Assembly: GCF_000015205.1 (NCBI RefSeq)
Contig: NC_008701.1
Location: forward strand, 1,553,436 to 1,617,435
Origin: Pyrobaculum islandicum DSM 4184
Lineage (GTDB): Archaea > Thermoproteota > Thermoprotei > Thermoproteales > Thermoproteaceae
Reading direction: 5' to 3'
Length of the DNA stretch: 64,000 bases
In this document: positions 1 through 30,947 of the stretch, one piece after another
Position numbering within the stretch: position 1 is the stretch's first letter
Layout of the letters: every line of letters begins with the position of its first letter
The notes under the pieces: model-generated
Told to the model about the DNA's origin: nothing
The model's input: the letters and a program-made list of their open reading frames with translations, nothing else
Database searches by the model: none
Translations under genes and position numbers: made by a program

Positions 1-938
1 ATTCCTCTATCAAGTGCCAATTTGGCGAGTCTTATGGCGTCTGTTACAACTGCTGCGCTATTCCAAGCATCGTGAACATCTAGAGTGACATCAATTCTGA
101 TGGGAAGACCGCCAAAAATTTCGGCCTCTATAAGCATATGTGCTATCTTTCTATCGCCGAGGAATTCTATATAAGCCACTGGCGAGATATACGCATCAAA
201 CTCTTGTCCCACGGCCATCATTTTAACTGCAGCCGTCTTTGTCTTCTCTTTATCGCCGCGTCTATACATAAGATTTACAAAGTCAGGAGTGCCCCCTACA
301 TTTATCTGATAGGTGTGTTTTATTTTTACGCCTCTCAGCGCCAGCAACCTCACTAAAGTCTTATGAAGCACTGTTGCGCCTATTTGATTCTGCGTATCGT
401 CGCCTAACAACGGCAAGTTTCTCTCTGCAAACCTCTTTTGCCAATACTCGCTCGTAGCCACCGGAGCTGGCATGGCGTTTATAAACGCGACGCCGGCTCT
501 TAATGCCGCCTCTGCATACGCCTCTGCAGCTTTTTTTGCGCCTGTTGGCAAATAGTTTACTAAAATCTCTGTATTCGTAGAATTAAGCTCTTTCACAACA
601 TCTTCCACAGAACCCTCGACAACCTTTGTAACGAGACCCCCCTCTGGAACCCCATCAAGAACTGGGCCTGGGCGTACTATCACCCCTAGTTTCGGCGGCT
701 TAAAAACCACTGTCGCGTTGTTTGGAGGTTGAAATATAGCATCAGCTAAGTCTACGTGAACTTTTCTAGCATCGATATCAAAAGCCGATGTAAACACTAT
801 GTCGTGAGGCCTGTATCTACCTATCTCTCTAAAAGCAACTATTGGTTCTAGATTTGGATTATGTTTATACATCTCGATGCCTTGGACAAGAGCAGAGGCA
901 CAGTTTCCCACTCCTACAATACCGACTCTGATAGGCAT
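1..938 (-). CDS. ino1: myo-inositol-1-phosphate synthase (3' end outside window)
   Basis: The reverse-strand reading frame runs off the left edge, so the C-terminus is missing (about 312 residues visible). It begins MPIRVGIVGVGNCASALVQG, a Rossmann nucleotide-binding start, and contains the family segment NYLPTGAKKAAEAYAEAA followed by FINAMPAPVA. The family converts glucose 6-phosphate to L-myo-inositol 1-phosphate with NAD; in archaea the product feeds inositol phospholipids and compatible solutes. The ATG at 938 is supported by a TATA-like TTTATTAACA on the minus strand at 957-967, about 24 bp upstream, which implies a leaderless mRNA. The next feature upstream is a decayed tnpB, not a related gene. 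Confidence 0.9.
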   Translation of the reverse strand, partial: MPIRVGIVGVGNCASALVQGIEMYKHNPNLEPIVAFREIGRYRPHDIVFTSAFDIDARKVHVDLADAIFQPPNNATVVFKPPKLGVIVRPGPVLDGVPEGGLVTKVVEGSVEDVVKELNSTNTEILVNYLPTGAKKAAEAYAEAALRAGVAFINAMPAPVATSEYWQKRFAERNLPLLGDDTQNQIGATVLHKTLVRLLALRGVKIKHTYQINVGGTPDFVNLMYRRGDKEKTKTAAVKMMAVGQEFDAYISPVAYIEFLGDRKIAHMLIEAEIFGGLPIRIDVTLDVHDAWNSAAVVTDAIRLAKLALDRG

Positions 939-1104
939 ATCTACCTAAACAAATGTGTTAATAAACAATTCTGTAAGCATAGGACGTTAAATTAGGCCAA
1001 GCTTCTTAGTGGTTATCCTCCGGCTTCCGGCCTTGAGCCGGTCTCTAAATTAGCGCCTTTATCAGCTACTCTCATGAAGCAACAGGAATATCTTGAGGAT
1101 CGAG

Positions 1105-1519
1105 ACCTTAGCGGGTTATGGGTTGCGTCAATAGCCCTGGGCTCTGTCAACTTGACGACCGCCTTACCTGTGTCTCTTTCGTTTTCGACCCTCAGCTAGG
1201 TGTTCAACGGAACTACCCGTTGAAACACTATATCACGCCAGAGGAACTTGGCGTAATCCACAAAAGCTTTCCCAAGCCCATATTGGAGAAACACCTCCTC
1301 GATTATCCGGTGTGCCAACTCACGCCTGTCTGGCGTGAGGAGTCTGTCCAACTCCTCCGCCGTGAGTCTGGGCTCCTCCTGTCCCGTCAACTCTTTCAAC
1401 AGCCTTCTGGCGTACTCCTCTGCCGCTAGGTGCATCCTTACGGCGAGGTTTAGGACGTCTGGCCTCTCTTCTACCAACTGCCAGGGGATTTCTATCTTTA
1501 ACGTTCTGTATGCGTACAT
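1105..1519 (-). pseudogene. tnpB N-terminal fragment, 'B-type' start (cassette 1)
   Basis: From ATG at 1519 the minus strand encodes about 107 residues closely matching the N-terminus of the intact TnpB at 2151-3416 (e.g. LVEERPDVLNL, KELTGQEEPRLTAEELDRLL). An in-frame TAG follows PLNT, and the homology resumes with LRVENERD and then a short piece resembling the TEPRAI region before the RuvC motif. The nuclease half is missing, so the gene is dead. It faces away from the intact copy across a conserved spacer. The reading frame is open upstream of the ATG into the spacer, but homology to the other B-type copies supports the start MYAYRTLK. Confidence 0.8.
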
Positions 1520-1765
1520 GTGTGTATATGTGGATGGGCTGAAATATCTGCTTATAGAAGACACACGGGGGCAAGCCGGAAGTTTCACAAGACAAACCCA
1601 CGGCGCCGTGCCCCGCCTCTCCTCAGAGCTGGTGAAACCCGCCCCTCTCCCCTGGCGCCGTCGTGAAGGCGGCGTTGAGAGACGCGTGTCGGCCATGTTG
1701 TTGACCTTCGCCGCCACTAGGGCTGTTGCCGTCGTGAGCTATTGATACCCGCCGGCGTCATACAC

Positions 1766-1915
1766 ATGCCGCCCCTCGCGTTGTTCATACTGGCGATACC
1801 CACCGCGGCGTTGGCGGCGCTCACGGCGATAGCCGCCGTAAACCCGTTTTTCAACCCACCCACACCTCTAACGCAGTCCCCCACCACTTTCTACTACCTC
1901 GGTTCACCTGCCTGA
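1766..1915 (+). CDS. Small hydrophobic ORF in the tnpB spacer (49 aa)
   Basis: The reading frame starts MPPLALFILAIPTAAL, continues with an alanine/leucine-rich segment that could form one membrane helix, and then has AVNPFFNPP. The second cassette carries the homologous frame (14462-14641, minus), which keeps MPP-ALFI, IP/FP-A, AVNPFFNPP and has many changes between these blocks. In the third cassette the frame is damaged. Its stop lies inside the spacer palindrome. It points the same way as the A-type tnpB. It may be a real small membrane protein or merely conserved DNA; no function is known to me. Confidence 0.35.
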   Translation: MPPLALFILAIPTAALAALTAIAAVNPFFNPPTPLTQSPTTFYYLGSPA

Positions 1916-1938
1916 CAGCGACGACGTCAGGCAAGTGT
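1904..1938. repeat. Spacer palindrome, cassette 1
   Basis: GCCTGAC at 1910-1916 is the exact inverse complement of GTCAGGC at 1926-1932, with partial extension outward (CACCTG / CAAGTG). Similar palindromes sit at the same place in the other three cassettes (14459-14482, 50030-50062, 55232-55268). In IS200/IS605 elements hairpins near the ends are recognised by TnpA. No tnpA is present here, so this is only a candidate end structure or binding site. Confidence 0.55.
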
Positions 1939-2150
1939 GTGAAAGGAGTTGAAAGGACGTTTCAGACTTTTTGTGCATGTGGCGGGGGAGGTATGAAGTT
2001 GTCGCATACATCGCAAACGCCGCCGGGCAGATACTAACCGCAATTTCCCCCTATATCCAACAATAGCCTTTTTTCCAAGGCCGACGTCCTACTTGCTCAA
2101 CAACGAGGGATCTCAACACCTAGCTTTTCTCCCCCACGCCCTTTACGCAT

Positions 2151-3416
2151 ATGAGCCAAGTCTACAGGACGCTGAAGATCAGAATCCCATGGCGCGTCGT
2201 TGAGGAGCGTCCAGACGTCCTAGACCTAGCGACGAGGATGCACTTGGCCGTTGAGGAGTACGCCAGAAGGCTGTTGAAAGAGTTGACGGGACAGGAGGAG
2301 CCCAGACTCACGGCGGAGGAGTTGGACAGACTCCTCACGCCAGACAGGCGTGAGTTGGCACACCGGATAATCGAGGAGACGTTCCCCAAGTATGGTCTCA
2401 AGAAGTATTTCTCAGAGTGGGCTAAGTTCTTCTGGCGCGACGTGGCGTTCTACCGGGCAATCCCCCTCGACGTCCAACTGAGAGTGGAAAATGAGAGAGA
2501 TGTGAGTACGGCGGTCTTTGTCGACCTAAAGAGCGACGTAGTCAGAGTGCGTAAGCTCGGCATACCGCCTTTCGCCGTCAAGTTGAAGAAGAGCGACATC
2601 TCTTGGATTAGGCGGAGGTTGGAGGAGGGCGCCAAGTTGAAACTGGCGCTTCTCGGCGTTGAGAAGAGAGATGGTGAGAAGGATCCTACTTACGGCGGTT
2701 TATATGTCGCTCTCGTATTCGCTAGAGAGGTGACGCAAATAGAGCCCAAGGCGCTTGTCGTTGTCGACGTGAACCGGTTGGACCACTACATAAAGGTCGG
2801 CCTCGTGGCCGACGGCAGAGTCTTGGAGTTGTGGAAGTTCCCCAAGAAAGAACGGATACGGAAGCTTGAGAAGATCCACGCCCACATAAGCCAACTGAGC
2901 AGAGCCCTAGCGCGCATAGACGAGGACAGAGGCCCGCGTAGGGCGTTGGATCTCCAGAGGCAACTGTGGAAGCTAGAGAAAAAACGCTTTGGCATAATCC
3001 GCGACGTCGTTATAAACGCCGCCCGCGAGATCATAAAACTGGCCAGAGAACACCAAGCCGCCATAGTCGTCGACACGATGGAAGACGGCACGTACCGGGA
3101 GTTAAAGGAGAGGGGCGGAAACGGCGTGAGGAAGCACTTCCTAGACGGTTTGGGACAACTGAGGAGACGCTTGCAAGCGCTTGCGCGGTGGTACGGCATT
3201 CCATATGTGGAGGAGCGGCTGTACTCAACCATCTGCCCCAGATGCGGAGTCAAGATGGCGATGGAGGACGGCCGCTTCATGCGTTGCCCCACCTGCGGCT
3301 TCAGAGCACATAGAGACAACGTGCCGGTGATATGGGCAGAAAAACGCTACTGGGAAATCCTCCAGAAAACAAAACAACCCACTTTTTCGGCGACCATCAC
3401 ATTTTTAACTTCGTAA
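2151..3416 (+). CDS. tnpB: TnpB-family RNA-guided nuclease (IS605/IS1341 type), intact copy
   Basis: The 421-aa protein has the order expected for TnpB: a helical N-terminal half, then a split RuvC domain with a zinc ribbon. The candidate catalytic residues are D206 in VVVDVNRLDH, E311 in VVDTMEDGTYRELK and D389 in AHRDNVPVIWA. The zinc ligands are C362, C365, C379 and C382 (CPRCG...CPTCG). The first RuvC motif lacks the usual Gly after Asp, so this is a divergent subfamily. TnpB proteins cut DNA using an RNA made from the 3' end of their element. The start MSQVYRTLK is shared with the minus-strand A-type fragments at 14393 and 55172. No TnpA is encoded nearby. This is the only uninterrupted copy in the window. 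Confidence 0.9.
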   Translation: MSQVYRTLKIRIPWRVVEERPDVLDLATRMHLAVEEYARRLLKELTGQEEPRLTAEELDRLLTPDRRELAHRIIEETFPKYGLKKYFSEWAKFFWRDVAFYRAIPLDVQLRVENERDVSTAVFVDLKSDVVRVRKLGIPPFAVKLKKSDISWIRRRLEEGAKLKLALLGVEKRDGEKDPTYGGLYVALVFAREVTQIEPKALVVVDVNRLDHYIKVGLVADGRVLELWKFPKKERIRKLEKIHAHISQLSRALARIDEDRGPRRALDLQRQLWKLEKKRFGIIRDVVINAAREIIKLAREHQAAIVVDTMEDGTYRELKERGGNGVRKHFLDGLGQLRRRLQALARWYGIPYVEERLYSTICPRCGVKMAMEDGRFMRCPTCGFRAHRDNVPVIWAEKRYWEILQKTKQPTFSATITFLTS

Positions 3417-3430
3417 GTTTTCTTATTTCA

Positions 3431-3590
3431 TGAACGGCGTTTGGCCCCTGGGGCGGCAGACGGGGGCGCCAGACTGTTGCAATATAAACAATCAGCGGCC
3501 GGCCCCCGCATGACCCGCCCCCTCGCCCCGGTGCACCCGGGGCGGGCCCTTAAGTCCCCCGGGGAGGGGCCAAGAGAAAGATAGGGGACG
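3431..3590 (+). ncRNA. Candidate omega-RNA scaffold downstream of intact tnpB (copy 1)
   Basis: The GC-rich tail begins 14 bases after the tnpB stop. TTGGCCCCT (3441-3449) is the exact complement of AGGGGCCAA (3565-3573). That second strand lies inside the loop of a stem GTCCCC (3554-3559) / GGGGAC (3584-3589), which makes a pseudoknot. A central hairpin CGCCCCGG (3524-3531) / CCGGGGCG (3537-3544) has a 5-nt loop. The same pairings with different bases occur after the other three tnpB copies. If it is an omega RNA, the guide would start just after GGGGAC, around 3590. The boundaries are inferred. Confidence 0.7.
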
Positions 3591-3672
3591 TATGGGTTGC
3601 ATATTTAATAACAAAACGTTGTCTAATTAGCTAGGTCGCTAAAATATGTGTAGAAGATACTCGTTTACTACT

Positions 3673-5481
3673 TTAACTTATTTTCGAACTCGCTCCTTTA
3701 TCCCCTGGTGTATTTTCGATAAGTCTCTCTTCTTTTAGACTTTCTAAAACAACCTCAGCTATATCTTTGACCTCTACAGAGCTTTCCTTAGTTCTTTTAG
3801 CATCTAACAACATGGCATTACAGAAGGGGCATAACGTTACTATTGTAGAGGCGCCAGTAGAGACTAGCTCCTCGAATCTTATGTGGCTAATCCTCTTTTC
3901 CTCTGGGACATCATACCAGTAGTTTGCTCCACCCGCGCCACAACAGAAGGTTCTCTCGCCGTGTCTCGGCGGCTCTTTAATATCGCCAAGCTTAACTAAG
4001 ATCCTCCTCTGCGGCTTGACCACTCTGTTATAGCGAGCTAAGTAACAAGGGTCATGTATTGTAAATACAGTATCTCCCCTCTTTACAACTATCCTACCCT
4101 CCTCAATTAATTGCTGAATTATCTGGACATGGTGATAAACATCAAGATTTATGCCAAATTCTTTATATTCATTTTTAAAGACATTATATCCATGTGGACA
4201 TATTGTTATTAGCTTTTTTATTCCATATTTCTCAAAGAGTTGCTTGTTCTTAAGGACTATTTCCTGAAATCTGCTTTCTTCACCCAATCGTCTTGCTGGA
4301 TCCCCACAACATGTCTCCTCGTCGCCAAGTATCGCAATTTTGTCTAGCATACCAGCTTTCCTTAATATATCAACGAAGGCTTTAATTATCTCTCTAGCTC
4401 TTCCGTCAAAACTTCCCATACAGCCAACCCATAGTAGGTATTCTGCGTCTGGATTTTCGCTTATTGTCTTTACGCCAAGCTCTCTAAGCCAATCGTGTCT
4501 ACCTACATTGGGGCTAGACATCGTATTTCCATATTGTGAAATAGAGAGAAGAACATCTGCAATTTTCCTGTCTACCCTGCCTTGGGCTACTAATGCACGT
4601 CTCACGCCGTATATAACATCAAGGTGGTTTACCCGCACGGGGCAACTATAAACGCACATACCGCATGTTGTACATGCCCAAGCTTGGTGCTCAAGTTTTA
4701 TAGCTAGTTCAAAACCCGGGTTGTTGGAGTTTAGAGAAACCGTTCTCACCACAAATCTCGGTGAGAGAAGACGGCCAGCGGCGACGGCAGGACAGCCCTC
4801 GTCGCATGCGCCTATCTCGCCACAAGACTGACAAGATAGCAAAACTTCGCGATCTACGTCCGAGATCTTCTCATACCCAAATTTTACATTTTCAATGTCT
4901 GAAACCTCGTCTAGCCTAAAGGGAATCTTAAAAGAGGTTAGCTCTCTGTCGTAATTTATTATCAGGTTAGCAGCTGGCTTTACGTAGAAGAGGGCAAGGA
5001 AAACATTTCTTACAGTACCTATTAATAACGAAAGCTTAGGAATAAACACCGATAGTAATATATCTAAGAACGTCAGGACAATTATACATAGAAGGATTAT
5101 CTGCATCTTATTAGACTCTCTTATAAACTCTTTATCTGCGTTAAGTCTCTTGTGTATGACATTACTCCTTATAAGCACCCTAGCTCTATATATTGTCGCC
5201 ATAATTAAACCAGCCATTATCGGTAAACTAATGATCCATAAGATAAGAGATAAGGAAAAGATAGAGCTAGAGATTGCCAGAAGTAATGAGAGAATTACAC
5301 CAGAAGCAATTGAGAAATGCATATACCCCACTCCTCCTTTTAGTGCTTCTCTAAATTCGTAAAGTATTAACTTGGTAATATTGATTTTTCTCTTATTATA
5401 TAGCTTTACTCTTCCAAGTAAAAGAATTATAAAGACAACAAAAGTTACTAAGAACAATAACATTAGTAATTCATCTATCAT
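3673..5481 (-). CDS. Membrane-anchored heterodisulfide-reductase-like Fe-S oxidoreductase
   Basis: The 602-aa protein begins with a hydrophobic segment (MIDELLMLLFLVTFVVFIIL) and further membrane helices up to about residue 175. It then has two 4Fe-4S ferredoxin motifs (CQSCGEIGACDEGCP near residue 218 and CTTCGMCVYSCP near 270). Two CCG-type cysteine-rich domains follow: CMGSF...CCGDPARR around 354-397, and HDPCYLARY...CCGAGGANYW...CPFCNAM around 478-560. This is an HdrE-like membrane part fused to an HdrD/DsrK-like part. Such proteins move electrons between the quinone pool and a disulfide or related substrate; the substrate here is unknown. A TATA box (ATTTAAGTAC, 5498-5508) lies about 24 bp before ATG 5481, supporting a single leaderless gene. 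Confidence 0.8.
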   Translation of the reverse strand: MIDELLMLLFLVTFVVFIILLLGRVKLYNKRKINITKLILYEFREALKGGVGYMHFSIASGVILSLLLAISSSIFSLSLILWIISLPIMAGLIMATIYRARVLIRSNVIHKRLNADKEFIRESNKMQIILLCIIVLTFLDILLSVFIPKLSLLIGTVRNVFLALFYVKPAANLIINYDRELTSFKIPFRLDEVSDIENVKFGYEKISDVDREVLLSCQSCGEIGACDEGCPAVAAGRLLSPRFVVRTVSLNSNNPGFELAIKLEHQAWACTTCGMCVYSCPVRVNHLDVIYGVRRALVAQGRVDRKIADVLLSISQYGNTMSSPNVGRHDWLRELGVKTISENPDAEYLLWVGCMGSFDGRAREIIKAFVDILRKAGMLDKIAILGDEETCCGDPARRLGEESRFQEIVLKNKQLFEKYGIKKLITICPHGYNVFKNEYKEFGINLDVYHHVQIIQQLIEEGRIVVKRGDTVFTIHDPCYLARYNRVVKPQRRILVKLGDIKEPPRHGERTFCCGAGGANYWYDVPEEKRISHIRFEELVSTGASTIVTLCPFCNAMLLDAKRTKESSVEVKDIAEVVLESLKEERLIENTPGDKGASSKIS

Positions 5482-5516
5482 AAGTTATAGGGCACCGTAC
5501 TTAAATAAAGATGACC

Positions 5517-6173
5517 TTAGATTTCTCCCAAAATATTCTTACATATTATGTCGAAAACGCAACTATGGCATTTTTTGTTCTCAGGCGGTTTATCCGATTC
5601 CAAAATTTGTCTTATTTCCTTTAAAAGTTTAAGAGCATTATCGTCTCTTTCTACTATTTCTACTCTGTTTCTGTATACTAAGTATCCGTATTTTGCATTT
5701 AAGAGATGTATATATATCTGTAATTGTCTCCTATGCGCCTCCCTTGTCGCTGTACCGGCTTTGATTTCTACTGGGATAAGATTACGGCCTTTCTTAACTA
5801 CGACATCTATAACGCCTACTAAATCGCCTATCTCCACCTTGTATTCTATAATAACGTTGTCAAAAACGGAAACAGCTCTTTCGTATCTTTCATGAAGTAA
5901 TCTTCCACGAATAAGCGATACTGCAGAACCTTTTGTAAATAGTTTCAACCTTAGTTTATGTTGTACCCATAGTAGTCTTGGACAATACTCAAAATCGTTA
6001 ATAACAGAGGGCGATATGCGCTTGAAATCATACCTATATGCATAAATATCGGGAAATAACCTAAAGATCTCTTGCTCTTTTTTCAACTCCTCTAACGCAC
6101 CTTCAGCGTCTAAGTTTTCTAAGTCATCACAATTTATAAGACGACAAATCGGCCTAGGCCGTAGCAATTCCAT
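5517..6173 (-). CDS. Cas4-like PD-(D/E)XK exonuclease with Fe-S cysteines (standalone)
   Basis: The 218-aa protein matches the Cas4/RecB-nuclease layout: N-terminal Cys (SVINDFEYCPRLLW, C64), His motif (GRLLHERYE, H94), GVIDVVV with D123, PVEIKAG with E136 and K138, a QLQIYIHLL helix (motif III), and a C-terminal Cys cluster KKCHSCVFDIICK (C202, C205, C211). These four cysteines would hold a 4Fe-4S cluster. I found no CRISPR repeat or other cas gene in the window, so it is a solo Cas4 homologue, possibly a repair nuclease. Its start overlaps the end of the upstream GTPase gene by 20 bases, indicating co-transcription. Confidence 0.8.
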   Translation of the reverse strand: MELLRPRPICRLINCDDLENLDAEGALEELKKEQEIFRLFPDIYAYRYDFKRISPSVINDFEYCPRLLWVQHKLRLKLFTKGSAVSLIRGRLLHERYERAVSVFDNVIIEYKVEIGDLVGVIDVVVKKGRNLIPVEIKAGTATREAHRRQLQIYIHLLNAKYGYLVYRNRVEIVERDDNALKLLKEIRQILESDKPPENKKCHSCVFDIICKNILGEI

Positions 6174-7713
6174 CTCCTACTCTCAAAATTCTGCCAAATA
6201 TTCTAGTGGGGCCATTTCTAAAGATAAAAACGCCGCTGTCTATATGCCATGGCCTCACAAACTCTATTTTAACTACGCCGCTATCGCCGACCATGAGCTC
6301 CCCTTTATCAATCTCCTTTATATACGCATTTGTCCTAACAGCCTTGTAGTGAAAAACTCCGGAAAATCCGGCTTTAATTACTGTCGGATGTCTCAATACA
6401 AGAACCTCGGCGAGCACCTCCCTACTTGCCCCAAGAGGTTTGCTAGATAAAACCATGCCTTTTTCTACTTTATCTACCTTGTCTAGCCCCAGAGTAATAA
6501 AGCTGCCGGCTTTTGCAGATTCTACAGGCGTTCTATTAAGATGGATAGATTTTATAGACGTGGAAATCCACCTCCCATCACTATAGGGGCCTATCCAAAG
6601 TTTGTCCCCTACCCTTACAATTCCCCTCTCTATTAACCCACCGACTACAACGCCCACTCCCTTTACTAAGTAAATATCAGATATATACATCAAGAAGTCT
6701 CCTCTATAATCCCACGTCTTTCTCTTAGGCAACAGAGAGAGAAACTTCAGAAGTAGATCTAGCCCATGGCCTGTCACGTTGGAGGTAAAAAATATAGGGG
6801 CTACACGTCCTGAAGACAAGGCTCTTGCCGCTAATACGACATCGCCCACCTCTTTTATGACATAGGGTATCTTGCTAACTCCCGGCATTTTTAAAATCCT
6901 AGTGACGTCTTCTAAAGTCCTTTGAAAAACCTCTTGAGGCGCTACATCTACCCTGGTAATTACAACAAATACAGGCACGCCAAGGGCAACTGCTATGCCT
7001 AAGTGTTCTTTTGTCATTTTCTGTACGCCCGAGTTCGCCGCCACGACTAACATAACGTAATCCGGTTGCGAACTAAAGAGACCTCTAAGCGCCGTCCTTA
7101 AATACCTCTCGTGCCCTCCTACGTCGACTAGGAGAACTAATTTGTCAGACCTTTTATATACCTCAGCTTCGTCAAGCGGATCGAGTAAACTATGGTTAAC
7201 TACAACATCGCCGTTAAAACCCAGAAGTCTCATAGATACAGAGGAAGTACGCCCAGTTAACACCTCGTGTTTATACCTAGACGCATATGACCTAGCCAGA
7301 CCTCTTCCATCGTCTAACCTCCCCGTAGTTAAAACTCCCACTAACGTAGATTTTCCAGCATCTACATTACCAAGAACAACCACTGTGACTGTAGGAGGCG
7401 GCTCCTCCCTAACGGCCGCTCTTAACAAGACCTCAGCGACCTTCCCCTTGATACCCTCGGAAATCCTCAATATGTATACAGAGGCGCTTGCTCGTTTGGC
7501 AACCTCTCGCAGTATGTCAAGCGCCTTGATTAGCTCCTCGTCAGAGAGTCCCTCAGGTCTCCCGTCATCTGACACACCTATGAGATATACCGCCTCTCCT
7601 CCTCCCTCATATAGACGTCGTTTCAATTGGCCTGCTAGCCTATCTATATCATCGGCATTAAGCATGAGTTTATATTCGACATTCCCATCTTCGCTCTCAG
7701 GAGGAAAACCCAC
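6154..7713 (-). CDS. GTPBP1-like translational GTPase (EF-Tu family)
   Basis: The GTP-binding motifs are clear: P-loop GNVDAGKSTLVGVL, G3 DVGGHERYLRTALRG and G4 TRVD. A C-terminal half follows with EF-Tu-like beta-barrel domains (e.g. VVVGGLIERGIVRVGDKLWI). The long stretch before the P-loop (about 125 residues) and overall length fit the archaeal GTPBP1/GTPBP2-like group, whose cellular role is poorly defined. The frame is open back to 7776, but I place the start at GTG 7713 because TTTTTAAAAA (7730-7740) lies about 22 bp upstream and would give a leaderless mRNA; this yields 519 aa. The Cas4-like gene follows with a 20-base overlap. Confidence 0.8.
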   Translation of the reverse strand: MGFPPESEDGNVEYKLMLNADDIDRLAGQLKRRLYEGGGEAVYLIGVSDDGRPEGLSDEELIKALDILREVAKRASASVYILRISEGIKGKVAEVLLRAAVREEPPPTVTVVVLGNVDAGKSTLVGVLTTGRLDDGRGLARSYASRYKHEVLTGRTSSVSMRLLGFNGDVVVNHSLLDPLDEAEVYKRSDKLVLLVDVGGHERYLRTALRGLFSSQPDYVMLVVAANSGVQKMTKEHLGIAVALGVPVFVVITRVDVAPQEVFQRTLEDVTRILKMPGVSKIPYVIKEVGDVVLAARALSSGRVAPIFFTSNVTGHGLDLLLKFLSLLPKRKTWDYRGDFLMYISDIYLVKGVGVVVGGLIERGIVRVGDKLWIGPYSDGRWISTSIKSIHLNRTPVESAKAGSFITLGLDKVDKVEKGMVLSSKPLGASREVLAEVLVLRHPTVIKAGFSGVFHYKAVRTNAYIKEIDKGELMVGDSGVVKIEFVRPWHIDSGVFIFRNGPTRIFGRILRVGDGIATA

Positions 7714-7741
7714 GTAAAAAAGCCAAAAGTTTTTAAAAACC

Positions 7742-9901
7742 TTAAAGAGGCAGTAGTCCAAATGGATATATACCAATTGCTACGTTAGCCAACACTATGG
7801 CATATGCAAAAACTACAGACAGCGTGTTTAAGACCTTTATTAACGGGTTCAGCGAGGGACCTGAGGTGTCCTTAAACGGATCTCCTACGGTATCGCCTAT
7901 TACCGCCGCCTTGTGCATATCTGTCTTTTTAAGGCCTTGGAGCTCGATGTACTTCTTGGCGTTGTCCCAAGCGCCGCCTGCATTAGCCATAAGTAAAGCT
8001 CTGGGAACGCCGGCGACAATAGCGCCCATTATGAGACCCGCCAACGCGTTCCAACCAAGGACAAGGCCTGTTAACAACGGCACTATTATAGCGGCTAGAC
8101 CCGGTATCAGAAACTCGCCAAGCGCTCTCCTGGTCGCTATGTCGACAACTCTGGCGTAGTCGGGCTGCTCCTTCCACTCCAAAATACCCGGCCTCTCTCT
8201 AAACTGCCTTCTTATCTCTTCCACAATTTCCATAGCGGTCTTACCTACAGCCTCAAGCGTGCGGCTTGTGAAGAAGTAGACCAGCGAAACGCCTATAAAC
8301 GCGCCTATCAATACATTGGGATTTATAACTTGTAAAACGCCTAAGTTCTTCTCCATAATCTCTATGATGTTTTCACCGGGGATGATCTTATGTACGGCAT
8401 ATACAATTTCGAATATCAAAGCGATAAATAGCACGAGCGCAGCTAGCGCGGCGCTCGCAATAGCATAGCCCTTTGTAGTCGCCTTAGTGGTATTGCCGAT
8501 AGAATCTAAAACGTCGGTAACCTCTCTTACATTGTCAGGCAACCCAGCCATTTCCACTACGCCGTTGGCGTTGTCAGAGACAGGACCGTAGGAGTCGGCG
8601 GTAATTATTATACCTGCAATCACTAGTAGACCTACGCTAGCCATAGCAGTGCCGAAAATACCCGCTAGATACTTTGAATATTCGCCAAAGGTTTGAACAG
8701 GTACGGCATGGTAGCCGATCATATAAGATATACCGAGCACTGCGGCTATAACTGCTATGACAGGTATAGCGCTCATCAGACCTACACCGTAGCCGGTGAT
8801 GATTACAGTTGCCGGACTTATCTTTGCTTGTTCAGCTATCCTCCTCACCGGACTGTAATTGTAAGAAGTGTAATAGTCGGTTATCTTAACTACAAGCGGT
8901 GCAATAATAGCCCCGAGAGATGTAGCCGTTGCAAGGGCTAGAGCTCTCCAAAGCTCGATACCAAGTAGAAAAGATCCTGCGAAAAACAAGATGATAGATA
9001 GCGCTATAGTGGCATAAATAGCAACACTTATGGAAGACAGTGGGTTTTTGACGCCAGATGTCTTTAATAGGTTTACGCCTACAAATGTCGCTAACAGAGC
9101 CAGTGTTGCATATAATATAATGGCTTCAATGTATTGAGCCGGAAGACCTAATATCGCGGCGAGAAAAATAGCTGCTGTGACAGTGACAATATAAGACTCA
9201 TAAACGTCTGCCGCCATCCCTGCCACGTCCCCCACGTTATCCCCTACGTTATCTGCTATAACGCCTGGGTTTCTAGGGTCGTCCTCAGGAATGCCTGCCT
9301 CTATCTTACCCACGAGGTCAGCGCCGAGATCTGCAGCCTTTGTGTATATACCACCGCCAACTCTCATAAAGAGCGTAACTAGACTGGCTCCAAAACCTAG
9401 AGCCACCAGAGGCACTGCCCATTCGTTCGTCATTTGTTTAAAAACTAGGTAGAAGGCTGATATTAAAAGCAAAGCCACGCTTGCAAGAGATACACCCATG
9501 ACAGCGCCGGCGCGCCATGAAATTAATAACGCCTTGCCCATACCGCTAGTCGCGGCGGCTTGTGCAACACGGGAAGCAGATCTCGTAGTTACATACATGC
9601 CGAGATAACCAGCTAACATAGAGCCCAATGCGCCAACTATAAAACCTAAAGCCGTAAGCCCATATGTGCCTCTCGGTATGTCAATAGCTATGGCTATTAA
9701 TATTGCAAGTATTACCAAAAGTAAAGCTAGCGTTCGGTATTGCCTAAAAAGATAAGCCCTAGCGCCAGTAGCTATTGCTTGTGAAATAAATTGCATCTTC
9801 TCACTTCCGGGATCTTGCCTTAAAACCCACCTGGCAAGATATATAGCATATATAACACCTAAAGCCCCCACTATTGTTCCAAAGACGGCAAATTCTACCA
9901 T
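7742..9901 (-). CDS. hppA: K+-independent proton-translocating membrane pyrophosphatase
   Basis: The 719-aa protein is almost entirely hydrophobic with about 16 membrane segments. It carries the family's pyrophosphate/Mg-binding motifs GGGIYTKAADLGADLVGK, IPEDDPRNPGVIADNVGDNV and, near the C-terminus, GDTVGDPFKDTSGPSLN. It uses PPi hydrolysis to pump H+ across the membrane. The residue that separates subfamilies is Lys in GNTTKATTKGYA; K+-dependent enzymes have Ala there, so this one should not need K+. The ATG at 9901 follows a TATA-like CTTTTAAGT around 9921-9930. It is a separate transcription unit just upstream of the GTPase gene. Confidence 0.95.
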   Translation of the reverse strand: MVEFAVFGTIVGALGVIYAIYLARWVLRQDPGSEKMQFISQAIATGARAYLFRQYRTLALLLVILAILIAIAIDIPRGTYGLTALGFIVGALGSMLAGYLGMYVTTRSASRVAQAAATSGMGKALLISWRAGAVMGVSLASVALLLISAFYLVFKQMTNEWAVPLVALGFGASLVTLFMRVGGGIYTKAADLGADLVGKIEAGIPEDDPRNPGVIADNVGDNVGDVAGMAADVYESYIVTVTAAIFLAAILGLPAQYIEAIILYATLALLATFVGVNLLKTSGVKNPLSSISVAIYATIALSIILFFAGSFLLGIELWRALALATATSLGAIIAPLVVKITDYYTSYNYSPVRRIAEQAKISPATVIITGYGVGLMSAIPVIAVIAAVLGISYMIGYHAVPVQTFGEYSKYLAGIFGTAMASVGLLVIAGIIITADSYGPVSDNANGVVEMAGLPDNVREVTDVLDSIGNTTKATTKGYAIASAALAALVLFIALIFEIVYAVHKIIPGENIIEIMEKNLGVLQVINPNVLIGAFIGVSLVYFFTSRTLEAVGKTAMEIVEEIRRQFRERPGILEWKEQPDYARVVDIATRRALGEFLIPGLAAIIVPLLTGLVLGWNALAGLIMGAIVAGVPRALLMANAGGAWDNAKKYIELQGLKKTDMHKAAVIGDTVGDPFKDTSGPSLNPLIKVLNTLSVVFAYAIVLANVAIGIYPFGLLPL

Positions 9902-10012
9902 AGCCGACCAGATCTATATTACTTAAAAGTTTTTCAAGAGCTATGGCTAGCGTATACGTAAACTATACGTATACATAAAAATATTTTAAAAAGCTACGAA
10001 ATCGATTGCCAT

Positions 10013-12316
10013 ATGCCTCTTGAGCGCGTTGTAGAATTCAGAATAGCAGGAGACATTGATATAATTCCTGAACTGATATATTTCATAGGCAAGGCAGGAG
10101 TAGCTATGTTTGAGGAAAGACCTGAGAAACTTCCAAAACCACACGATCCTATTCTTTTTCAAAAAGCTAAGAAAATAGACGAATTTCTTAACCAATTAAT
10201 GCTGTATATACAGCCACAGCAAGTAAAGTTGCCTCTCGAAAACCTAGAACAACAGGTAAATGCTGTTTTGGAAAAACTGGAGTCTATTTACAAAGATGTT
10301 TTATATCGTGTCCGCTTGGCAGACGAGCTAAGGACTAAGTTAGCTATCTCAAGAGAAATTTTTTCACTTAAGACAGTTAGTATTCCTAAAACAGAATCAA
10401 TAGACATATTTATAGTATTGCCAGGTAAAGCCATAAGGGAAACTATAGAGTTAGCAAAATCATTTAACGCCTCTGTTATACAACAGGGTAATATCCTTAT
10501 TGTAGCTATAGAGCGTAGAAGCGCATCACAATTAAAAACTGCGTTGGAAAAACTCGGGGTAAAAATCTTCACGCCACAAGAGGTCGCAGAGGTGGATCCT
10601 CCTGACGTAATTGAGGATAAGCTAAAAAAAGTAGAGGAGGAGCTCAGAGCTATAGTCCTAAGACACAAGGACTTGATAGACTATGCATATACCCTCAGAG
10701 GCGCTATAGCTACTGTTATAGATACTTTTAATAAATCTGCAATAGATGAGGGGCTAGAGGTCGGCCGTCTTTTTGAATCGTACGAGAGAGAAATAAACAG
10801 GTTGGAATACCAACTAGCAAGTCTGAGCAAAATCAGAAAGGTCTTGAGCGCTCTCTCAGAAAAAGAAAGTCTAAAAATTCCAGAGGGCTACAAACTAGTT
10901 ATAGACCCAGAGACTCCTATAGAGGCGCCCCACGTAATTCAGGAAATAGACGGGATTAAGATAGCTCTTGTGAGAGGAGGTGCCAAAGGTTTAGAGATTC
11001 CACGCGAGTATTTAACAGATATAAAAACTGGGAGAGAGCTCGTCGAAAACGCTATAAGATCTACAGAGGTATCGCTACAAAAATTGAAGAAAGAGTTGGA
11101 GACTTTAGAAAAGCTATACGGCGAATATTCTTTATACGGGGATAAAAATTGGGAGGGGCATAGAAATACTGCATCAGTGATATTTTACACGTTGGAAAAA
11201 GATGTGAAGAAAATAGATGACATACTTACAGAATTTATAAGGAGGAACTTAGTTAAACTAGATGTAGTTAAAAAGATACGCTATAAATATTTTGATAAAG
11301 TGCCTGTAGAGAGAAGACCCACGTTGGAGAAATATCCAACGCCAATTAGACAATTTACAAAAATTGTATATATGTATGGAGTTCCTAAAGCTGATGAATT
11401 AAGTCCTGTTCCCTTGGTGGCGTTGATCTTTCCTGTATTTTTCGGCTGGATGTACGGCGACTTAGGCCACGGCTTCCTCCTATTTCTCCTGGGGGTACTC
11501 CTAATGACTAAGTTATATGGAGGAAGACATAGAGATTGGGGCGTGATATGGACTCTCACAGGCCTGGTGTCTATGTTTTTTGGCGCTTTTGTATATCAAG
11601 AGGCCTTTGGATTTGGCCTAAAAGAGCTCGGTATAAAAATGCCGACACTTCCGCTGTTGCACATATTCGGGGTACACACCCTGGTAGAGTCTGAGGGTGT
11701 GATAATTGCCCTAAGGGCTGCGTTTTTACTCGGCTTTCTGTTGTTACTTCTCGCCTTTATTTCAAAAATCATAAACACGGTACTCAAGGGAGAGCCCGAC
11801 GTAGCAATAGCAGTAGTGCTACCACAAGCTCTACTCTTCTTTTCATTAGGTATGGTGTTTTTCAGCCTTATAAAAGACGCGTTTCATATGGAGTTTCTAA
11901 CCCCGTTGATGCAACTCCCCTGGATATATGTATTTCTGCTTGCGTTTATCTGGAGCGCGACAGGGGCTCTAGTACTCAAAGCTAGATATAAACACCATGA
12001 GGAAGCCCCGCCTATAACTGAGGAGTTTATCATGGGATTTGTGGAGGGATCTCTAGCGGCACTTGCAAATATACCAAGCTTCTCTCGTCTGGTAATACTC
12101 ATACTTATACATGGCGTGTTGACAAAGTTGGCAAACGGCGTCGCCATAGCCCTAGGCCCCGCTGGGCTACTCTTTGCAGTGTTTGCCCACGCCCTAATAG
12201 CCGCGGCGGAGGGCCTCTTCTCGACGGTACAATCGCTACGTCTGACGTTCTACGAGATATTTTCTAAGTTCTACGAGGGCAGAGGCCGCCTCTTTACACC
12301 CTTGGCGCTTCCATAA
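10013..12316 (+). CDS. atpI: A/V-type ATP synthase subunit I (a-subunit homologue)
   Basis: The 767-aa protein has the two-part form of subunit I: a soluble, coiled-coil-rich N-terminal half (about 1-445, with charged heptads such as KKVEEELRAIVLRHKDL) and a membrane half starting at VPLVALIFPVFFGWMYGDLG. That motif and the C-terminal AAEGLFSTVQSLRLTFYEIF, with the essential arginine region, form part of the proton path against the K ring. No other ATPase subunit genes are adjacent. A TATA element (TATTTTAAAAA) precedes ATG 10013 by about 25 bp. The stop overlaps the next ATG (TAATG), so the two genes form an operon. Confidence 0.92.
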   Translation: MPLERVVEFRIAGDIDIIPELIYFIGKAGVAMFEERPEKLPKPHDPILFQKAKKIDEFLNQLMLYIQPQQVKLPLENLEQQVNAVLEKLESIYKDVLYRVRLADELRTKLAISREIFSLKTVSIPKTESIDIFIVLPGKAIRETIELAKSFNASVIQQGNILIVAIERRSASQLKTALEKLGVKIFTPQEVAEVDPPDVIEDKLKKVEEELRAIVLRHKDLIDYAYTLRGAIATVIDTFNKSAIDEGLEVGRLFESYEREINRLEYQLASLSKIRKVLSALSEKESLKIPEGYKLVIDPETPIEAPHVIQEIDGIKIALVRGGAKGLEIPREYLTDIKTGRELVENAIRSTEVSLQKLKKELETLEKLYGEYSLYGDKNWEGHRNTASVIFYTLEKDVKKIDDILTEFIRRNLVKLDVVKKIRYKYFDKVPVERRPTLEKYPTPIRQFTKIVYMYGVPKADELSPVPLVALIFPVFFGWMYGDLGHGFLLFLLGVLLMTKLYGGRHRDWGVIWTLTGLVSMFFGAFVYQEAFGFGLKELGIKMPTLPLLHIFGVHTLVESEGVIIALRAAFLLGFLLLLLAFISKIINTVLKGEPDVAIAVVLPQALLFFSLGMVFFSLIKDAFHMEFLTPLMQLPWIYVFLLAFIWSATGALVLKARYKHHEEAPPITEEFIMGFVEGSLAALANIPSFSRLVILILIHGVLTKLANGVAIALGPAGLLFAVFAHALIAAAEGLFSTVQSLRLTFYEIFSKFYEGRGRLFTPLALP

Positions 12317-12993
12317 TGGAGATAATTGCGGAGATTACGCCACTTAGAGATAGAGACAAAGTACTCAGAAAGTTGGAGTCCATAAAGCCCTATGTGGAGA
12401 AGGTAGATATCCCAGAGTCGCCGGGTGGTAAACCGACAGCGCACTCCCTGGCGGTGGGCGCTTTAGCAAAGCAGTTGGGGCTGGAGCCCATAGTCCACAT
12501 AAGGCTTCTCGACGTAAACAAGACAGGGTTTAAATCCCTCCTAGGCGGCGCCTACATACTCGGCGTAAGATATGTTGTGGTTTTACAGGGCGATCCGCCG
12601 GCAGAGGGCGAGCCCGTTGGTGAAGTCACTACGGAGGAGGCGGTGGCAGAGGCAAAGAAGATGGGCTTTGTGACAGGCGCTCTTCTTAGTTTCAGAAGAG
12701 ACTACATAGAGCGAATAAGACGGTTGGGAGCCGACTTTTATCTAGCGCTACATCTAACTGACGTTAAACAGTTAGAGGGTTTGCCACCAATAATATATCC
12801 CTATATTATGATTAAAACAGGGAACAACATCGCGTTGCTCGAGAGACTAAGACAGACAGCTGTTGAACTGCCGCAAGCGCTAGGGTTAATAGAGAAGCTC
12901 AGAGGAGTAGTTCCAGGCATTGTCTTGTCTGTACCTGGAGATTTTGAGACGCTACTTCAGATTCTAAGAAAAATCAAAACATGCCGCAGTTAA
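12316..12993 (+). CDS. MetF-like methylenetetrahydrofolate-reductase family protein
   Basis: The 225-aa TIM-barrel-like protein has features of the methylenetetrahydrofolate reductase family: a first strand with VEKVDIPESPGGKPTAHS, then IVHIRLLDVNKTGFKSLL and YVVVLQGDPPAEGEP. The last resembles the LRGD(P) segment that contacts FAD/folate. It is shorter than bacterial MetF (about 290 aa). It would act in C1 transfer with a modified folate; the exact substrate in this organism is unknown. It begins inside the stop codon of atpI. Its last 20 bases overlap the convergent rpp29 candidate. Confidence 0.7.
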   Translation: MEIIAEITPLRDRDKVLRKLESIKPYVEKVDIPESPGGKPTAHSLAVGALAKQLGLEPIVHIRLLDVNKTGFKSLLGGAYILGVRYVVVLQGDPPAEGEPVGEVTTEEAVAEAKKMGFVTGALLSFRRDYIERIRRLGADFYLALHLTDVKQLEGLPPIIYPYIMIKTGNNIALLERLRQTAVELPQALGLIEKLRGVVPGIVLSVPGDFETLLQILRKIKTCRS

Positions 12994-13213
12994 AAAGTCT
13001 TCTGTCGCGGTAACCAACAAGATATATACCGTTTATCAAAACTCCTAAGTCATATACATAGAAGCGACAGGGGTACTTCGGTATTGTGACAACTCGACCG
13101 CCGGCGAGAATTAGAAAAGTGTTGTTCGTCTCTCCCACAACAACCCCCCTCACCCTATAGGAGCATTTGTACGTGGAGACCTCTCTTCCTAAAAGATCTA
13201 TACATATGGGCAT
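12974..13213 (-). CDS. rnp1: Candidate RNase P protein Rpp29 (component 1)
   Basis: This 79-aa protein follows rpl29 with no gap (TAA directly followed by ATG). That is the position of the Rpp29/Pop4 gene in most archaeal rpl22-rps3-rpl29 clusters. The sequence fits the Sm-like Rpp29 barrel: DLLGREVSTYKCSYRV, then RGVVVGETNNTFLIL, GRVVTIPKYPCRFYVY and LINGIYLVGYRDRR. These match the family's G-V-E-NT, PK--C-F and G--L-G-P--R pattern. Rpp29 binds RNase P RNA with Rpp21. As I recall, work on the minimal RNase P RNA of Pyrobaculum relatives recognised only Pop5 and Rpp30, so this assignment matters. The alternative is an unrelated small protein. Confidence 0.7.
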   Translation of the reverse strand: MPICIDLLGREVSTYKCSYRVRGVVVGETNNTFLILAGGRVVTIPKYPCRFYVYDLGVLINGIYLVGYRDRRLFNCGMF

Positions 13214-13447
13214 TTAGGAAGACTTCTGCTGGCCCGCTTTCCTAGATTCCTCTTTTTCAATAGTTAAAATTCTAGCAATTGCCCTTTTGATCACTCTTAT
13301 CCTACCCGGATTTTCTACAAAACCCCTAGACCTTTGAGTCTCAAGTTTTACAAGCTCTGCCCTAAGCTGGTTTAATAACTCTCTCCTCTCCTCTGGCTTC
13401 ATTTCGCGTAGAACTCTGGCTTTAAGTCTCTTGTTATCTAGAGACAT
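13214..13447 (-). CDS. rpl29: 50S ribosomal protein L29 (uL29)
   Basis: The 77-aa basic helical protein contains the L29 signature: KARVLREMKPEERRELLNQL, then LVKLETQRSRGFVENPGRI and RVIKRAIARIL. It binds 23S rRNA near the peptide exit tunnel. It lies between rps3 and the rpp29 candidate on the same strand. The next ATG follows its stop directly and 30 bases separate it from rps3, consistent with one transcript. Confidence 0.93.
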   Translation of the reverse strand: MSLDNKRLKARVLREMKPEERRELLNQLRAELVKLETQRSRGFVENPGRIRVIKRAIARILTIEKEESRKAGQQKSS

Positions 13448-13477: not shown

Positions 13478-14131
13478 TTATTGTTGTGAAGTAGTCTCAG
13501 GTTTCACCGGCGGCTTTATTTTGTATTCGTCTGAATATTGCAAAGAGGCTGGCGCGATCCTTACCTCTATGCCATATATACCAGGCTTAAGAAGCACATG
13601 GACAACAGCTCTTCTAACCCTGTTCTTTGCGTCGTACCCGATCTTATAGAGCTTGCCATATGTAAGTTTCTCAAAACGGGCCCTCTCTGTCGAGAGCTTT
13701 CCGCTCACCACAATCTCAAACCCCTTGGCCCCAGCCTCCATAAGCTGTCTCACAGCTACAAACATAACGCGTCTAAACCTCACTCCTTTAGCCATGGCGT
13801 TGGCAATACGGTAGGCGATAACCTTGGGGAACATCTCAGGCGCCTCTATCTTAGAAACGTCAATAACATCGATTTGTGGGTTTTCTACGCCGAGTTTGTT
13901 TACCAGTATATTACTAATCTCCTTGACAATTACGCCCTTCTTGCCGATAATCCTAGAAGGCCTCTCTGCATATATCACAATACGTGTGCCAAGCGGGGTT
14001 TTCAAAATTTCAGAGTCTATATAGCCATATTTACTAAGTTTATACTCGAGAAACTCCTTAATCATCCACTTCTTCTTATTTTCCTCCAGTATTTTCTTAT
14101 AGACGGGCAACCTCCTCTGTACAGCAGACAT
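13478..14131 (-). CDS. rps3: 30S ribosomal protein S3 (uS3)
   Basis: The protein has an N-terminal KH domain (TRIVIYAERPSRIIGKKGVI) and the S3 C-terminal domain (AKGFEIVVSGKLSTERARFE, then KPGIYGIEVRI). It lines the mRNA entry channel of the small subunit. The frame is open to 14200, but ATG 14131 (MSAVQRRLPVYKK, 217 aa) is the better start: it matches archaeal S3 N-termini, and TATATTTAAAG at 14149-14160 lies about 24 bp upstream. The gene therefore has its own promoter. The expected upstream neighbour rpl22 is about 2.1 kb away, beyond a tnpB cassette. Confidence 0.95.
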   Translation of the reverse strand: MSAVQRRLPVYKKILEENKKKWMIKEFLEYKLSKYGYIDSEILKTPLGTRIVIYAERPSRIIGKKGVIVKEISNILVNKLGVENPQIDVIDVSKIEAPEMFPKVIAYRIANAMAKGVRFRRVMFVAVRQLMEAGAKGFEIVVSGKLSTERARFEKLTYGKLYKIGYDAKNRVRRAVVHVLLKPGIYGIEVRIAPASLQYSDEYKIKPPVKPETTSQQ

Positions 14132-14249
14132 CACACCCACTATAGGCGCTATATTTAAAGTTTTCCCTAATCCAAGGCGCTCAACGCCTTGTATCAGCAA
14201 GGGGTGAATCGGTCACCGCTCTCCATAAAGGAATTTCCATCATCACATC

Positions 14250-14393
14250 TTGTCCTGTCAATTCCTTTAATAGTTTCCTCACATATTCCTCCGCCGCTAG
14301 GTGCATCCTCGTCGCTAGGTCTAAGACGTCTGGACGTTCCTCGATGAGTTTCCAAGGGATTCTGATTTTCAACGTCCTGTACGTTTGGCTCAT
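14250..14393 (-). pseudogene. tnpB N-terminal fragment, 'A-type' start (cassette 2)
   Basis: ATG at 14393 starts about 47 residues matching the intact TnpB (MSQTYRTLKIRIPWKLIEER, then EEYVRKLLKELTGQ). Homology ends abruptly near 14250. The remaining frame (DVMMEIPLWRAV...) is unrelated host sequence running towards rps3. Only about 11% of the gene remains. It faces away from the B-type copy at 14845 across the conserved spacer and marks one edge of the cassette between rps3 and rpl22. Confidence 0.8.
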
Positions 14394-14844
14394 ATGCATA
14401 CAGGGCGTAGGGGAGAAAAGCTAGTTGAAGAGACTCTCTTTCTACTCTCTTACACACTTGCCTAACGGCGCGCCGTCAGGCAGGCGAAGCGTTGGATAAC
14501 GTGGGAGGTGTGAGTCTGTGGCGTCTTCGCGATGTTTAGAAGTCTGGGTGGGTTGAAAAACGGGTTTACGGCGGTTTTTACCGCGAGCGCCGTCAACACG
14601 GCGATGGGGAATATCGGTATGAACAGGGCTTGGGGCGGCATCAGCGGCGTATGACGCCGGCGAGGGTCGGCAAGTTGCTAGCAACGACGACCGCCCTAGT
14701 GGCGGCGAAGATTAACAACATGGCCAGCACGCGTCTCTCAACGCCGCCTTCACGTCGGCGCCGTGGGTTTGTCTTGTGAAACTTTTGGCTTGCCCCCGTG
14801 TGTCTTCTATAAGCAGATATTTCAGCCCATCCACATACAAGGCC
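14394..14844. other. Conserved spacer between head-to-head tnpB genes (cassette 2)
   Basis: This is the best preserved of the three spacers. From the A-type side it holds: the A-type upstream region (GGGGAGAAAAGCTAG); a palindrome at 14459-14482 (TGCCTAACGGCG joined to CGCCGTCAGGCA, one mismatch in 12 pairs, no loop); a minus-strand hydrophobic frame at 14462-14641; a plus-strand 42-aa frame at 14651-14779 containing VAAKINNMASTRLSTPPSRR; and the B-type upstream block. The peptide AAK(V/I)NNMA-TRL-TP recurs in the spacers of cassettes 1 and 4. Confidence 0.7.
14462..14641 (-). CDS. Small hydrophobic ORF in the tnpB spacer (59 aa)
   Basis: This is the homologue of the 49-aa frame at 1766-1915. 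It begins MPPQALFIPIFPIAVLTAL and has AVNPFFNPP at the same position, then a longer polar tail (KTPQTHTSHVIQRF). The conserved hydrophobic N-terminus followed by NPFFNPP suggests one membrane helix. It points the same way as the A-type tnpB fragment and ends inside the palindrome. Whether it is translated is unknown. Confidence 0.35.
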   Translation of the reverse strand: MPPQALFIPIFPIAVLTALAVKTAVNPFFNPPRLLNIAKTPQTHTSHVIQRFACLTARR

Positions 14845-16099
14845 ATGTACACATACAGAACGCTGAAGTTGGAGATACCTTGGCGCCTTGTCGAAGAGAG
14901 ACCGGACGTCCTCGGCCTCGCCATGAGGGTGCTAGCGGCGGAGGAGTACGTGAGGAGACTGCTAAAGGAATTAACGGGGCAAGAAGAGTTGAAACTCACG
15001 GCGCCACATACTTACTTCCAACAAATGCGAGTTAGCTGTCAGGATAATAGAAGAGGTGTTCGCCAGATACGGCCTTGGGAAGAGCCTTGCGAATTATGCT
15101 AAATTCCTCTGGCGAGACGTGGTGTTCCACCGGGCGGTCCCACTCGACGCTCAACTTAGGGTTGAGAACGAGAGAGACGTGGGCAATGCGGTATTCGTCG
15201 ACCTCAAGAGCGGCGTTGTCAAAGTGCGGAGGTTGCAAGAGACGTTAATAATTCATCTCAAGAGACAGAGCGCCGAGTGGATAAGGAGGAGAGTTGAGGA
15301 AGGCGCCAAGTTGAAACTTGCCTTCCTCGGTATTGAGAGACGAAAGAGCAAGAAACCAACATACGGAAAGCTCTACGTCGCCCCCGTCTTCGCTCGTGAA
15401 ATGACGCCGGCGGAGCCCAAGACAATAATCACTGTTGATATTAACCGCCTTGATCACGGCGTCATGGTGGGTCTCCTAGTGGATGGAAAACTGAGACAGA
15501 CATTGAGACTCCCAGACAAAGACGCGATTAAGACGTTAAAGAGACTCCACGAGGAGATAAGCAAGTTAGAAAAACAAGCCACTAGGGAGACAGACCTTGC
15601 GAGAAGGAAACGACTCGAGGAGAGAGTCCGCTATCTCAAGTCCAAACGATATAGGAAGATACGTGGCGTTATAACACAGATCGCGGGCGAGATCATAAAG
15701 TTGGCGAGAGAGCACAAAGCCGCTATCGTTGTTGATACAATCGAAGACGGGAATTACAGAATGTTGAAAGAGGGAAACGGTAGCGGAGAGAAGAAGCACT
15801 TCCTCGACGGCCTTGGGCAGTTGAGGAGACGCCTACAAGCGCTCGCGCATTGGTACGACATTCCGTATCTAGAGGAGCGGCTGTATTCAACTGTTTGCCC
15901 GAAATGCGGCGCCAATATGGCGGAGGAAAGAGGACACATAATGCGTTGCCCTGCCTGCGGCTTCACTGACCATAGGGATAGAATTCCGTTGCTCTGGGCA
16001 AAGAGGAGGTACTGGGAACTACTCCAGAAGACAAAACAACCCCGCTCTCCCCACTCCGGCGACCACCTCACTTTTAATCGTAAGTCCGCTCACTCATGA
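14845..16099 (+). pseudogene. tnpB, 'B-type', frameshifted near residue 55 (cassette 2)
   Basis: The N-terminal part (MYTYRTLKLEIPWRLVEER to EELKLTA) ends at a small deletion around 15000-15025 that removes most of the EELDRLLTPDRR segment and shifts the frame. The rest is then open to 16099: CELAVRIIEEVFARYGLGKS and onward, 347 aa from the GTG at 15056. The nuclease half is intact: Asp in TVDINRLDHG, Glu in VVDTIEDGNYR, CPKCG...CPACG and Asp in DHRDRIPLLWA. A shortened protein from 15056 would lack about 70 N-terminal residues, so activity is doubtful. An omega-RNA-like tail follows. Confidence 0.85.
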
Positions 16100-29123: not shown

Positions 29124-29411
29124 TTATATAGATCGTTGTGCCTTTCTGATTGACGCGGCAATAGCCTTTGCCCTCTTTGACGTCCCTGCAACTTTTACCG
29201 TGCGGCATCCGTTTAACAACGCAACGACGGCTCTCACGGTGCGGAGCGCCTCTCTAGGCACACCGACGACTAATACGTCGTCGTATATAGCGACAAACTT
29301 AGGCCTATAAATTAATGAGATAAAACCCGTGAGTTGATACATTTCAAGTATTTGTATATAACATGCGGCTGGTTCTTCGCTTTTAATAATAAGATACCGA
29401 TATTTAACCAT
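29124..29411 (-). CDS. rnp2: RNase P protein Pop5 (component 2)
   Basis: The 95-aa protein has the Pop5 outline: [13 protein letters not shown], then a beta strand with [30 protein letters not shown], and a C-terminal [20 protein letters not shown]. This corresponds to the archaeal consensus of a strand, R-x-ALV and G-(S/T)GT-KA. It starts inside the end of the rpp30 gene (8-base overlap), which is the usual archaeal pairing. Pop5 and Rpp30 form the heterotetramer that activates the RNase P RNA catalytic domain. Confidence 0.75.
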
Positions 29412-30920: not shown

Positions 30921-30947
30921 AGTTTTTAAGTCCGTAAACACAAAAAT

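Follow-up and report, generated by a model that had tools for sequence, protein, structure and literature searches.

A shortened Rpp29 encoded in the ribosomal-protein operon of Pyrobaculum islandicum, a probable third protein of a minimal RNase P

Introduction

Whether Rpp29 still has a place in an RNase P whose RNA lacks the specificity domain is the question raised by a small gene of Pyrobaculum islandicum DSM 4184. The gene lies in a window of 64,000 nucleotides (NC_008701.1, positions 1,553,436 to 1,617,435), the whole stretch of DNA analyzed here. Among natural forms of this ribozyme, type T RNase P RNA is radically minimal. It is reported to be active alone in vitro without proteins, and the mechanism of type T RNase P was called a mystery in a 2019 structural paper (PMC6565675). 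The initial annotation took the 79-aa product for a short Rpp29 in a lineage "reported to lack" this protein. The identification is correct, the surprise is weaker than earlier claimed, and the question of how so reduced an RNase P assembles becomes sharper.

The premise of a reported absence was not borne out. A 2016 paper from the Gopalan laboratory, citing Lai et al. (2010), states that Thermoproteaceae "also lack RPP21" and names RPP21, not RPP29, as missing (PMC4919917). No statement that Rpp29 is lacking was found in the literature searched, which left out Lai et al. (2010) and Chan et al. (2012). The premise is probably mistaken, and retention of Rpp29 may already have been reported in these two papers.

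Genomic context and coding evidence

The 79-aa protein is encoded on the minus strand at 12974-13213; a plus-strand reading was ruled out by stops in the frame tested. Its ATG (13211-13213) abuts an in-frame TAA (13214-13216), which is the stop codon of rpL29. Because this TAA directly precedes the ATG in the same frame (13211-13216, minus strand), a longer N-terminus is impossible in the rpp29 frame. The L29 gene (13214-13447, minus strand; Pfam Ribosomal_L29, 6.3e-16) is the immediate upstream neighbor and is itself preceded by the S3 gene (13478-14200, minus strand; Pfam S3_C, 6.2e-24), so that the product sits, as the initial annotation had it, at the archaeal rpp29 position. The arrangement is stable: each of the 18 family loci has L29 adjoining rpp29, 17 of them also have S3 (unmatched in the remaining one), and the S3-L29-rpp29 order is also kept in Vulcanisaeta-type loci. 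A ribosomal operon is the ancestral location of rpp29 (PMC4919917). At its 3′ end the gene is overlapped by 20 bases of an opposite-strand ORF (12316-12993) with an MTHFR-like Pfam match.

The next upstream gene in the ancestral order, encoding L22 (16284-16880, minus strand; Pfam Ribosomal_L22, 3.4e-23), is split from S3 in the window and adjoins it in Pyrobaculum sp. WP30. A TnpB-like ORF (15056-16099, plus strand; Pfam Cas12f1-like_TNB, 1e-7) lies between the two genes, and the S3-L22 gap is ~2.1 kb in the window versus ~0.1 kb in WP30. Thus, a mobile element seems to have been inserted into the ribosomal-protein operon. Beside the element lie two ORFs in opposite orientation, 14181-14399 (minus strand) and 14776-15102 (plus strand), which have a similar stretch in common (YRTLKIRIPWKLIEERPDVLDLA / YRTLKLEIPWRLVEERPDVLGLA) and returned no match in a Pfam search.

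Homologues of the 79-aa protein were found in 31 of 61 relatives (E<=1e-3), including every Pyrobaculum genome searched (11/11); a search of virus contigs for a relative returned none. Among the Pyrobaculum pairs printed, one nearly identical pair being left out, pN ranges from 0.13 to 0.23 and pS from 0.65 to 0.93. Variation falls mostly on third codon positions (72 of 73 variable, versus 39 first and 30 second positions). The homologues in relatives, the pN/pS ratios and the codon-position pattern show that the ORF did not arise by chance, and rpp29 is a genuine gene under strong purifying selection. The truncation of both ends and the loss of a partner protein, described below, are what would be expected of a decaying relic without function. 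This reading is hardly credible, since pN is far below a near-saturated pS, residues are invariant across the Thermoproteaceae and the gene is present in 40 of 44 genomes of the lineage; it was rejected on the codon-position pattern.

Identification as Rpp29

Against Pfam PF01868 the window protein gave E=1.4e-5. The profile check proposed in the initial annotation was positive in this sense, but the score of 25.3 bits lies slightly below the curated cut-off of 27 bits, which is reached by some Pyrobaculum copies. The Pfam model matches 12 of 13 family members. The family signal is clear when the comparison is turned around: with a profile built from 13 Thermoproteaceae sequences and searched against the PDB, archaeal Rpp29 chains rank first (6k0a_E, 8.8e-8). 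The two peptides offered earlier as an Sm-like Rpp29 pattern, GVVVGETNNTFLI then VVTIPKYPCRFYV, are both in the translation, which carries the motifs GVVVGET, PKxxCxF and GYRDRRL. The GX4ET motif, an E-K salt bridge and a conserved F have been described as the Rpp29 core (PMC4919917), and the window protein keeps this core as G23, the E28-K46 pair, T29 and F51.

An AlphaFold model computed from 12 sequences (mean pLDDT 88) predicts a Sm-like twisted beta barrel. Searched with Foldseek against the PDB, this predicted structure matched archaeal Rpp29 in all eight cases with E<=1e-3 (TM 0.71-0.81 on the query), the outcome anticipated when such a comparison was suggested. If the product were instead an RNA-binding protein of the Sm-like, KOW or Hfq type with no more than a resemblance to Rpp29, it would also be a small beta barrel, and DSIF KOW and Hfq chains do appear in the structure search. 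They are weaker and ranked below the Rpp29 chains, the sequence profile places Rpp29 first, and the gene order points the same way, which makes a generic barrel of this kind a very remote prospect; it was rejected on fold ranking and synteny.

Sequence, synteny and predicted fold therefore agree that the product is a short Rpp29, and the 79-aa gene is a true orthologue of archaeal rpp29 at its ancestral operon place. It shares with known archaeal Rpp29 (PF01868; 1tsf, 1v76, 2zae, 2ki7, 6k0a) the predicted Sm-like core and fold, the GxxxxET and K/F motifs and the position after L29. It differs in having neither the N-terminal ITPRNIxRHE segment nor the basic/aromatic C-terminal tail, in the fixed residues C17 and C49, and in the GYRD that replaces GRPED in Thermoproteaceae.

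Type T RNase P RNA and its proteins

We surveyed 91 relatives, 44 of which belong to two families (19 in f1, the Thermoproteaceae, and 25 in f2) and 47 to other lineages. The type T lineage as used here is f1 plus f2, comprising the Pyrobaculum, Thermoproteus and Vulcanisaeta/Caldivirga types. RNaseP-T (Rfam RF02357) scored over its cut-off in 43 genomes, every one in f1 or f2. In the genome from which the window comes, a full type T RNA was located at C1:1063576-1063783 (minus strand, 221.5 bits); rnpB of P. islandicum DSM 4184 has been given at 1063572-1063783, minus strand (PMC7191817). The earlier statement that RNase P RNA of this lineage is without its specificity domain is thus sound. 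In the Rfam type T model, P1 is kept and two hairpins lie inside P7, one of them with a GNRA-type loop; either hairpin may be P9.

Rpp29 was found in 40 of the 44 type T-lineage genomes (18/19 in f1 with the window protein as query; 22/25 in f2 with Pfam). Three of the four genomes without a match are 54-84% complete, and the fourth, G025, is 97% complete. The persistence of a short Rpp29 without an RNA specificity domain, as first proposed, fits these data.

The initial annotation also placed genes for Pop5 and Rpp30 at 29124-29934, and two genes are there. The first, at 29404-29934 (minus strand), encodes a short Rpp30 (176 aa) that lacks the Rpp29-docking C-terminal tail known from other archaea. 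Against Pfam p30 this protein gave E=0.024, and support came through Vulcanisaeta-type profiles: profile comparison linked f1 to f2 at 98% and f2 to canonical Rpp30 at 98.9%. The assignment of the f1 protein as Rpp30 is thus supported by chaining of sequence profiles via the f2 intermediate. A single-sequence AlphaFold model of the window Rpp30 (pLDDT 42) was set aside. The second gene, at 29124-29411 (minus strand), overlaps the Rpp30 gene and encodes a 95-aa Pop5 candidate, assigned by its position; Pfam and NCBIfam gave no Pop5 match. Adjacency of Pop5 and Rpp30 genes is known in archaea (PMC4919917). The Rpp30 half of the earlier claim therefore stands on profiles, and the Pop5 half on location.

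Pfam p30 missed Rpp30 in all 19 Thermoproteaceae genomes, 18 of which have a homologue of the window gene when the window protein, rather than the Pfam model, is the query. Surveys based on Pfam would thus wrongly call Rpp30 absent from the family. Within ~1 kb of the Rpp30 and Pop5 genes, a Pyrobac-1 sRNA (Rfam RF01722, 67.2 bits) was observed at 30944-31003 (plus strand), inside the frame of the 3′ flank of ORF 30348-30920 (plus strand).

Loss of Rpp21 and of the docking segments

Rpp21 scored over the family cut-off in none of the 44 type T-lineage genomes versus 42 of the 47 others. Given that a Pfam model overlooks Rpp30 throughout the Thermoproteaceae, it is conceivable that an Rpp21 too diverged to detect has been missed likewise. 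The protein set would then be less reduced, a matter that touches the mechanism and not the identity of Rpp29. A custom Rpp21 profile made from relatives gave at most 14 bits in the 44 type T-lineage genomes versus 63-124 bits in all nine others searched. Some of these nine had fed the profile; G020 and G050 had not, and G020, which belongs to the same order as the type T lineage, scores with it. RPP21 is also stated to be absent in PMC4919917, and the segment of Rpp29 at the Rpp21 contact has been deleted in parallel. A hidden Rpp21 is consequently quite improbable, and it was rejected on the custom-profile result.

For Rpp29, we aligned 20 sequences from the type T lineage with 16 others. 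An ITPRNIxRHE-type N-terminal segment, which lies at the Rpp21 contact and is customary in the family without being a condition of membership, is present in 0/20 and 16/16, respectively, and the residues before the first conserved G number 0-9 in the type T lineage versus 13-17 in the others. In Pyrococcus Rpp29, H46 and E47 make salt bridges with Rpp21 (PMC4919917); these residues form the end of the N-terminal segment that type T-lineage Rpp29s have lost. For some relatives the start codon was our own choice. In several, however, the frame is bounded by an in-frame stop like that of P. islandicum, and none of the open frames contains the motif. At the other end, the KKxxRRW-type basic/aromatic C-terminal tail occurs in 0/20 type T-lineage sequences versus 15/16 others. 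C17 is fixed in the type T lineage (20/20) and found in none of the 16 others, and C49 is in 20/20 versus 7/16.

Trimming extends to Rpp30. In Methanocaldococcus the Rpp29 barrel gains an extra strand from the C-terminal tail of Rpp30, and the C-terminal tail of Rpp29 fits into an Rpp30 groove (PMC6565675). In f1 and f2, the Rpp30 sequences examined stop before the PGVxI-type region of canonical sequences. This region was taken to correspond to the Methanocaldococcus tail from its position and from the description in PMC6565675; the phmmer alignment to 6k0a_C ends short of it. One f1 Rpp30 (L162) is cut by a contig end and uninformative on the tail. The tail is also missing in two other lineages (L130 and L142) that have Rpp21, which shows that its loss occurs outside type T too.

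No description of the trimmed ends, the cysteine pair or their coupling to Rpp21 and Rpp30 was found in the literature searched. The system corresponds to the type T RNase P known from Thermoproteaceae (RF02357) in its full type T RNA and in that Rpp21 was not found. Where the literature searched names RPP21 as absent, the present analysis describes the Rpp29 that remains, a candidate subunit trimmed at both ends.

Implications for a minimal RNase P

A short Rpp29 persists in these hot-spring archaea, in which the RNA is largely reduced and Rpp21, the usual partner of Rpp29, has been lost; the protein has thus probably been retained as a component of the minimal enzyme. We consider it probable that the shortened rpp29 orthologue continues to serve RNase P and is its third protein subunit, next to Pop5 and Rpp30. 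The trimmed protein would contact the catalytic domain that the RNA has kept, the likeliest sites being the end of P1 and the region around P9, as in the Methanocaldococcus Rpp29 complex. There, the Rpp29-Rpp21-L7Ae trimer touches the P1 and P9 ends, and the specificity domain is contacted mainly via Rpp21 (PMC6565675). Once bound, Rpp29 could steady the type T RNA while pre-tRNA is cleaved, in the absence of both Rpp21 and a T-loop anchor. If so, the role of Rpp29 would not be only specificity-domain binding.

Several points count against a third subunit: the lost docking points, the protein-free activity of type T RNA, and the footprint of the Pyrococcus Rpp21/Rpp29 pair, which is found only on the specificity domain (PMC2858038). 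With Rpp21 and the Rpp30 tail gone, both of them known docking points of Rpp29, the canonical architecture no longer guarantees its place in the enzyme. One tentative possibility is that Rpp29 of the type T lineage has been re-wired as a self-sufficient barrel, perhaps stapled by a C17/C49 disulfide, that binds catalytic-domain RNA or pre-tRNA directly. If true, the result would be an archaeal RNase P of very small size, put together on principles that differ from those of the Methanocaldococcus and human enzymes.

The same losses could mean that the Rpp29 core has left RNase P and, once Rpp21 and the specificity domain had gone, was kept for a second role elsewhere, for example on the ribosome or as an independent Sm-like protein that binds RNA. 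The Rpp21-side and Rpp30-side docking elements have gone together, rpp29 is tightly retained in a ribosomal operon, and new residues are fixed (C17/C49, and GYRD in Thermoproteaceae). However, the RNA-facing core residues G, E, T, K and F are conserved, and an operon position that is ancestral calls for no new role. We regard such a departure as unlikely and favor retention of Rpp29 in RNase P. The joint loss of the specificity domain, Rpp21, both Rpp29 ends and the Rpp30 tail suggests mutually dependent contacts. The kept set, consisting of the Rpp29 core, the short Rpp30 and the probable Pop5, offers a concrete protein set for reconstitution.

Additional RNase P-like RNA matches

A second RNaseP-T match (84.8 bits) was observed in one Pyrobaculum genome at L177:469-648, plus strand (G004:C1:567368-567547). 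Its 3′ half is near the consensus and its 5′ half is divergent and shorter; the locus represents either an incomplete duplication or a hybrid RNA. In two related Pyrobaculum genomes (G003/G004), weak RNaseP-T-like matches of 133 nt (27-28 bits) lie ~10 kb from rpp29, at L179:300-432 (minus strand) and L180:247-379 (plus strand); a search of positions 1-12500 of the window for a similar RNA found none. The two weak matches share P1 and the 3′ terminal parts.
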